Shown piece after piece: positions 50,357-50,603 of a DNA stretch of 64,000 bases. The notes beneath the pieces were generated by a model. That model had not been told where the DNA came from. It was given only the letters and a program-made list of their open reading frames with translations, and searched no databases. This DNA comes from Proteiniphilum saccharofermentans. Lineage in GTDB: Bacteria; Bacteroidota; Bacteroidia; Bacteroidales; Dysgonomonadaceae. Location of the stretch: positions 868,001 through 932,000 of the forward strand of contig NZ_LT605205.1 of the NCBI RefSeq assembly GCF_900095135.1, in the 5' to 3' direction. Position numbers and translations under genes: made by a program. Numbering within the stretch: position 1 is the stretch's first letter; the number at the start of each line of letters is the position of its first letter.

Positions 50357-50387
50357 TTGCCATACTTTATCCCTTGCCCTATCTTTG
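50357..50387 (+). promoter_or_regulatory. Promoter of the metY leader
   Basis: -33 TTG (50357-50359) and -7 TATCTTTG (50380-50387) with a 20-base spacer. The predicted transcript has about 200 bases before metY. Confidence 0.7.
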
Positions 50388-50419
50388 CATCGTTAAACAA
50401 GACTAAAAGTAAAAAAATA

Positions 50420-50509
50420 ATGAAAACGACAGACATTTATTTTGCTTCTCTTCCCTATACAAACAACCTCCATAAGGCTTCTCTCCCGTTAAGCCGAATG
50501 TGCTGCTGA
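50420..50509 (+). CDS. Leader peptide ending in Met-Cys-Cys, upstream of metY
   Basis: A 29-codon frame with ATG start, beginning MKTTDIYFASLPY and ending SRMCC and a TGA stop. The last codons ATG TGC TGC TGA form one arm of a 7-pair hairpin (50499-50505 with 50510-50516). Placed in the leader of a sulfur amino-acid gene, this looks like a cysteine- or methionine-sensing attenuator. No such leader has been described for this phylum as far as I know; that must be checked. Confidence 0.65.
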   Translation: MKTTDIYFASLPYTNNLHKASLPLSRMCC

Positions 50510-50552
50510 CAGCACACCTGCAATTCTACATACCCTTTTTGCAATCGCAAAA
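50476..50552 (+). promoter_or_regulatory. Hairpins of the metY leader
   Basis: GGCTT/AAGCC (50476-50495), TGTGCTG/CAGCACA (50499-50516, loop CTGA) over the Cys codons and stop, and TTTTGC/GCAAAA (50537-50552). The last is followed by ATATTTTTCT, a weak terminator tract. Confidence 0.55.
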
Positions 50553-50603
50553 CTTCAATATTTTTCTATTTACACATTGTATTTTATTTAAAACATTACC
50601 AAT

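Follow-up and report, generated by a model that had tools for sequence, protein, structure and literature searches.

In Proteiniphilum saccharofermentans, a reading frame of 29 codons with two Cys codons at its end stands shortly upstream of metY, and the locus raises the question of what this frame is for. We read it as a translated leader peptide (positions 50420-50509 of the window, the 64,000-nt stretch of DNA analysed here) through which the supply of Cys and Met would control metY by ribosome-mediated attenuation, gated by SAM where an aptamer is present; we assign this reading a probability of roughly 0.74. Sequence comparison documents the frame itself, a length that stays fixed among close relatives and a tail of Cys and Met codons, and it shows tails of this kind recurring at metY and at sulfur-assimilation operons. 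We infer that the leader is translated, that it senses supply and in which direction the response runs. When charged Cys-tRNA, and probably Met-tRNA too, is short, the ribosome would slow at the terminal Arg(CGA)-Met-Cys-Cys; with ample supply, it would terminate and leave, exposing the following RNA, and less transcription would proceed into metY.

The Leader Region in the Window

The features of the region are as follows.

50340..50359, + strand: imperfect inverted repeat ATACTATATTTATGGTATTG, a candidate operator overlapping the -33 region; similar repeats also precede leaderless metY relatives
50380..50387, + strand: -7 box TATCTTTG, present in L002-L007, with TTG at 50357-50359 as the -33 region
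50420..50509, + strand: leader peptide frame of 29 codons, translation MKTTDIYFASLPYTNNLHKASLPLSRMCC, ending Arg(CGA)-Met-Cys-Cys-stop and kept in L002, L003, L005 and L006
50495..50509, + strand: putative control codons CGA ATG TGC TGC TGA, identical at 14 or 15 of 15 nt in all pairs of five orthologues, with CGA-AUG recurrent in the family
50499..50516, + strand: 7-bp hairpin over Met-Cys-Cys and the stop codon, arms 50499-50505 (TGTGCTG) and 50510-50516 (CAGCACA), -9.0 kcal/mol
50517..50603, + strand: spacer between leader and metY, with a weak hairpin (50537-50552) and no convincing terminator
50604..51899, + strand: metY, an O-acetylhomoserine sulfhydrylase-type PLP enzyme (Pfam Cys_Met_Meta_PP, E 1.7e-134)

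The name metY is one that we, like the preliminary description of this DNA, assume from family knowledge. That description had reported a Bacteroidetes promoter, the 29-codon frame ending Met-Cys-Cys-stop and a 7-pair hairpin over these codons, and all three are present. The Bacteroides promoter consensus combines TTTG at -33 with TAnnTTTG at -7, and the leader AUG lies about 25-30 nt downstream of the transcript start inferred from the -7 box; 94 nt separate the end of the frame from the metY start. A second hairpin with a weak T tract had also been named. The hairpin exists (arms 50537-50542 and 50547-50552) but is weak (-4.3 kcal/mol), and a simple terminator scan made no call on it; the same scan also missed a stronger hairpin at 52034-52066.

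A perfect stem as long as the first hairpin arose at the control-codon site in 28 of 5000 spacer shuffles, and one of that length appeared somewhere in 119 of 2000 sequences when all 184 nt were shuffled. The fold of the 220-nt leader was mildly better than that of shuffles (z -1.73, 7/200). In the Rfam scan of the window leader, no family reached the gathering score; at E<=5 the sole match was a microRNA model on the other strand, far below the cut-off. The covariance model of the SAM-I riboswitch (RF00162) did not match this leader either, in line with the earlier remark that it carries no S-box-like riboswitch. The RMCC-stop pattern occurs at DNA level once in the 4.4-Mb genome, at this leader; its reversed control is likewise found once, so the uniqueness of the pattern is no evidence in itself. 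With only two Cys codons, the window leader falls below the threshold of at least three used for the wider family (see below), and it would be inconspicuous without its relatives.

The candidate operator has one exact match in its own genome and, at up to two mismatches, 125 matches vs 93 for a reversed control. By eye, repeats of the ATACCAT..ATGGTAT type lie near the metY promoters of L003-L008, L043, L045, L047-L049, L056 and L238 and may be a repressor site.

Conservation in Close Relatives

Searching 61 genomes for metY gave a match at E<=1e-60 in 50, and upstream DNA was read for the 30 best loci. Five of the seven closest orthologues (92-100% identity, own included) keep the 29-codon frame ending RMCC-stop; as L001 and L002 are identical, these five represent four distinct sequences, which share an identical length and contain zero frame-breaking indels. 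The body of the frame is far less constant: identity against L006 falls to 32-34 of 75 bases among these orthologues, and L006 and the window frame, with 33 of 75 body bases identical, agree in length, in the final 15 bases and in the 7 bases of the hairpin's downstream arm. This arm is retained in all five orthologues, including L006 with its otherwise diverged spacer.

These data bear on whether the window frame arose merely by chance over a regulatory hairpin, which we regard as very unlikely. The preserved arm 3' of the stop would suit such an origin, and so would the body changes, which are mostly nonsynonymous (20 vs 3 synonymous codon changes in L001-L006). A chance frame would nevertheless have to account for four distinct sequences of identical length with no frame-breaking indel, and for the Cys/Met tails that occupy this position across many other genera.

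The expected conservation of the frame and its Cys codons thus holds for five of the seven closest orthologues and fails elsewhere: the leader is missing in L004 and L007, and in L043-L049 and L056, metY relatives of 86-91% identity. At the 23 more distant loci among the 30 best (L008-L030), no frame was judged a leader; the Cys-ending frames of L009-L030 were left out because they were judged to overlap the end of a conserved upstream gene. In another family of the order, a frame ending ...SVRMCCCKH-stop precedes a metY of 81% identity (L041). Among 17 further metY-type upstream regions from the genus and order, one of them with <150 nt (L244), Cys/Met-rich frames were flagged in L233, L234, L237, L240 and L248, the last lying inside the upstream gene. 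A 22-base pattern of RMCC and hairpin matched 10 of 393 order genomes, and only the own match and that of L041 were found before metY.

Cys and Met Tails in the Wider metY Family

For the wider family, a scan of genome contigs supplied named metY loci, of which the best 80 of 584 relatives were taken; 79 have upstream DNA, and L054, with 4 nt, was dropped from all counts. A Cys tail was defined as an ATG frame of 15-80 aa with at least three Cys in the last 10 codons. Such frames occur at 35 of the 79 loci, tallied as loci rather than independent events, and 44 do not pass; a Cys-tailed frame with a GTG start (L342) stands outside these counts. Only 0.8% of 3950 dinucleotide shuffles pass. Among 400-nt regions upstream of other mechanically called ORFs at the same loci, two of 495 pass, and both (L098, L107) are metY leaders seen under a later ATG. 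The proposal of the preliminary description, a Cys-codon leader controlling metY, therefore finds good support in the comparison, both in the RMCC-stop frames of five of seven close orthologues and in these tails among the best 80 of 584 relatives.

The tails vary in composition. For example, frames end ..SRMCMCCCCC-stop in Pontibacter, ..CICMCCCC-stop in Mucilaginibacter, ..MCCCIQ-stop in Pedobacter and ..CCMCCCCCCC-stop in a Cyclobacteriaceae record, while Met-rich examples include ..MSMRMRMHMH.. in Sphingobacterium and ..MMMGRMSMA-stop in Thermophagus. Across 43 leaders, Met accounts for 14% and Cys for 44.5% of the final 10 residues, the Cys figure being partly a selection effect because leaders were picked for at least two Cys. 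Met-type tails without Cys precede metY and metH at L227, L230, L231 and L240. When the last 12 residues are removed, 47 leaders fall into 35 body clusters, which means that copying of a single peptide does not account for the tails; this body-only clustering was used because clustering with the Cys runs retained lumps 30 of 46 leaders.

The frame might instead encode a small Cys-rich peptide that is co-transcribed with metY and has a function of its own, for instance in the binding of thiols or metals. The Cys clusters, which reach nine in the last 12 residues (L071), would fit a peptide of this kind. The diversity of the bodies does not, nor do the Met-type tails that lack Cys; for nine leaders searched, NCBIfam gave no match and Pfam only matches far below the cut-off. 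We consider this explanation highly improbable.

Codon usage at the tail bears on a further possibility, that an Arg-Met-Cys(n) end with CGA stalls the ribosome by nascent-peptide arrest in response to a sulfur metabolite and not to tRNA charging. Within their last 14 codons, 49 leaders together hold 19 Arg-Met pairs, 14 of them with CGA as the Arg codon; the metY genes at these loci use CGA for 36 of 667 Arg residues, less than any other Arg codon. The hexamer CGAATG likewise stands at the end of 15 of the 49 leaders, compared with 78 of 9800 windows drawn at random, and the window shares CGA-AUG at 50495-50500. Arrest would make sense of this bias. Many leaders, however, lack Arg-Met and carry only runs like CCCCCCC, and poly-Cys and poly-Met runs better fit the counting of codons, so that arrest appears quite unlikely next to the preferred reading, attenuation by amino-acid supply.

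A bare Cys4-stop pattern was tried as a search tool and rejected: it matches in 124 of 148 phylum genomes, and none of 30 matches examined was judged a leader. As a side observation, the poly-Met leader of L240 (..NSMMMGMMQMMMHIM..) is followed, by eye, by a hairpin with a T tract before a metY-like gene of 48% identity; further upstream lies another Met-rich frame.

Termination and RNA Pairing

How the leader would act on metY was addressed by looking for pairing and terminators in the family. L043 and L115, which are not leaders, were dropped from the terminator, composition and pairing counts, and L090 also from the latter two. The preliminary description had proposed that a paused ribosome opens the hairpin over the Cys codons and so changes expression, an idea that finds no general support. 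As a family-wide switch this hairpin was rejected, since pairing of the Cys codons with RNA downstream is at the level of chance (a rank below 0.05 in three of 43 leaders; Kolmogorov-Smirnov p 0.16). The intrinsic terminator was rejected as a general exit as well: terminators were called in 7 of 44 leader-metY spacers vs 11 of 132 shuffles, not clearly above chance. A covarying hairpin in eight Mucilaginibacter spacers also failed, with two-sided change in one of 11 pairs and a covariation term of 0.03. Alternative terminator and antiterminator structures were thus not found in the window or in most leaders.

Three loci have the look of a canonical attenuator, the antiterminator arm being assigned by inspection only. 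L090 carries the strongest of the seven spacer terminators (-13.8), and clear terminators (-22.7 and -21.0) are present in L075 and L077, whose records bear the names Ignavibacteria and Kapaibacterium and which are not among the 44. In L075, the leader segment CGTGAGAA is able to pair with the terminator segment TTCTCACG, again by inspection.

The scarcity of terminators leaves room for a leader that acts on translation, in which a ribosome paused on the Cys codons alters folding near metY and hence its initiation. Terminators do not exceed chance in most spacers, and the spacers behind 46 aptamer-linked frames (53-222 nt, median 128) could fold. Still, in the predicted folds the main hairpins lie, by eye, far upstream of the metY AUG, and the terminators of L075, L077 and L090 point to transcription at those loci; control of translation is possible but, in our judgement, unlikely.

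Transcriptional attenuation, the preferred reading, would then need another exit at most loci. The spacers are rich in C and poor in G, with a C content of 0.249, a G content of 0.164 and more C than G in 39 of 43; in control intergenic stretches C and G stand at 0.173 and 0.174, and C exceeds G in 25 of 58. The own genome also contains rho. These two observations make a Rho-type exit plausible, and for most relatives it plausibly fits better than an intrinsic terminator.

A SAM-I Aptamer in Tandem With the Leader

In many relatives, the leader is itself preceded by a riboswitch. A SAM-I aptamer motif lies upstream of the frame at 47 of the 79 named metY loci (best 80 of 584); cmscan found RF00162, matched over its full length, in 12 of 13 loci tested, L060 being the exception. 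Behind 46 of the 47 aptamers stands a frame of 23-48 codons, with at least three Cys in the last 12 codons in 34 and at least three Cys+Met in 41. The distance from the TATAAA-like closing strand, which is the P1 helix in the aligned RF00162 match of L097, to the leader AUG is 13-18 nt at 41 of 42 loci under a rule preferring the AUG nearest 16 nt, and at 33 of 43 when the plain first ATG is taken. In these relatives, the closing helix would cover the ribosome-loading stretch of the leader, so that any translation of the leader would depend on SAM.

A set of 18 genomes chosen from these loci holds 48 aptamers, 18 before metY and 30 elsewhere. At all 18 metY aptamers, the first ATG lies 1-10 nt past the Rfam aptamer end and opens a 23-48-codon frame, whose end is Cys/Met-rich in 16 (exceptions L182 and L194). 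Cys leaders follow only five of the 30 other aptamers (L204/L220, L205/L221, L207/L222, L217/L223 and L219/L224). No such leader follows the remaining 25, which include the aptamers of metH, metE, metF and a second PLP-enzyme gene (L206); at L211 and L215 a 16-18-codon frame lacks a Cys/Met tail.

An even draw of 99 genomes from the phylum yielded 133 aptamers, of which three under the cut-off were dropped and 130 analysed, with metY called by motif. In the window's class, which we take to be Bacteroidia in view of the Proteiniphilum record of L042, a Cys/Met leader follows five of eight metY aptamers and one of 33 others. In the other classes it follows none of 51 metY aptamers, 11 of which have some frame without a Cys/Met tail at the site, and none of 38 others. 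Thus, the arrangement of aptamer and leader is a feature of the class, not of the whole phylum. Within the order, three metY genes stand behind an aptamer (G042, G043, G046), with a Cys/Met leader at L225, a short Met-rich leader at L227 and none clear at L226. In the window's genus, RF00162 was not found in 25 genomes under stricter filters.

Several loci deserve separate mention. In Algoriphagus (L082, L085, L087, L092), frames at the usual distance from the aptamer lack a Cys/Met tail or obvious sensor codons. In genome G500, a SAM aptamer and a Cys-tailed frame precede a SusC-like gene (L354), and an aptamer with the GTG-start frame of L342 precedes an ATP-grasp-like gene, both genes identified by eye.

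Leaders at Other Sulfur Genes

Among the five non-metY Cys leaders, L221 precedes a cysH-cysD-type operon with two PAPS_reduct genes (Pfam) and a third gene that is CysN-like by eye, and L220 and L224 precede operons of the NIR_SIR (sulfite-reductase) type (Pfam). The operon of L223, with Pfam PAPS_reduct and TP_methylase, is of the NIR_SIR type by resemblance, and behind L222 lies Pfam Na_H_antiporter. Genome G049 has two metH genes behind Met leaders, one ending ..PMGMH-stop (L230) and the other ..PMVMHS-stop (L231). Judged by sequence, the leader codons fit the gene: Cys at cysH-cysD and NIR_SIR operons, Met at metH, and Cys and/or Met at metY.

A two-input gate in Bacteroidia may be proposed, tentatively and at a little under even odds. 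In this scheme, the SAM-I riboswitch would act on the start of the leader rather than of the gene, and Cys/Met charging would steer the translating ribosome. Genes of sulfur input (metY, cysH-cysD, sulfite reductase) could carry both sensors, most homocysteine-methylating genes (metE, metF, most metH) the SAM sensor alone, and the window's genus the Cys sensor without riboswitch. With aptamer and leader together, one mRNA would read two sulfur signals; a riboswitch with a leader peptide as its output, if true, would be a new way to build an RNA logic gate. More broadly, this recurrent, fast-changing set of leaders would explain how sulfur assimilation in Bacteroidia reads amino-acid supply.

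Relation to Known Systems

To our knowledge, Cys leaders are known only from actinobacteria and one alphaproteobacterial motif. In mycobacteria, Canestrari et al. reportedly described polycysteine leader attenuators in 2020, with a leaderless mRNA start named in the title. That work is cited in passages of two later papers (PMC9094748; PMC13236596), and a Seliverstov-type comparative prediction from 2005 describes small frames that carry runs of Cys close to their stop codon upstream of mycobacterial sulfur genes, with no conserved terminator hairpin and with Rho suggested (PMC1262725). The leaders reported here are similar in that a frame upstream of a sulfur gene has Cys codons close to its stop (only CC in the window, up to CCCCCCC in relatives). 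They differ in belonging to another phylum with no sequence relation shown, in having metY as main target, in using Met codons too and in the SAM-I aptamer in front of many of them. In another instance, the cysS leader uORFC-8-2 of Rhodobacterales, as an excerpt presents it, carries two tandem Cys codons in a stem, as does the window, and was proposed to act by ribosome-mediated attenuation; it differs in being alphaproteobacterial, in preceding cysS and in its 3' U run (PMC8632094).

In the SAM-I riboswitch (S box, RF00162) of the relatives, the 3' strand adjoins the start of the leader peptide and not the gene's own start; the window differs from these loci in that the aptamer is absent. Classical amino-acid attenuators of the trp, his and ilv type have control codons matched to the pathway. 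The present leaders share this trait, a short frame with pathway control codons being what was found, and L075, L077 and L090 also share the canonical look; unlike the classical cases, most lack a recognisable terminator. The consulted part of one paper treats ilvB1 as a case of an amino-acid attenuator (PMC13236596). Leader-peptide attenuation upstream of amino-acid operons is mentioned in general terms for a flavobacterium (PMC9723704), and leader-like short frames are mentioned for B. thetaiotaomicron (PMC7366714), both in extracts of the respective texts. A search of the open full-text literature, supplements lying outside it, found no description of Cys/Met leaders in Bacteroidota or of a tandem of SAM riboswitch and leader, and novelty is accordingly provisional.

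A Second Short Frame Behind metY

Directly downstream of metY lie two further features.

51926..52012, + strand: Met/Cys-rich short frame MHLFNAKRMHITMMNCRKLPDSRYLLCT with stop, directly 3' of metY and kept in L002-L005
52034..52068, + strand: strong hairpin and candidate terminator, -16.8 kcal/mol, with five T at its end, partly paired, between the second frame and a SusC-type gene

Like the SAM riboswitch tandem and the Met-type leaders, these features were outside the view of the preliminary description. The frame has 28-30 codons in L002-L005, including L004, which is without the first leader, and is absent from L006 and L007. A search of 119 order genomes for its motif MNCRKLPDS gave the own match and two in or beside unrelated coding sequence. 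The 155 nt around the hairpin at 52034 fold better than shuffles (z -3.67, none of 200 as good), and SusC/SusD-type genes follow at 52165-56970. The second frame and its hairpin may be an attenuator on the transporter, a variation on the theme of the metY leader.
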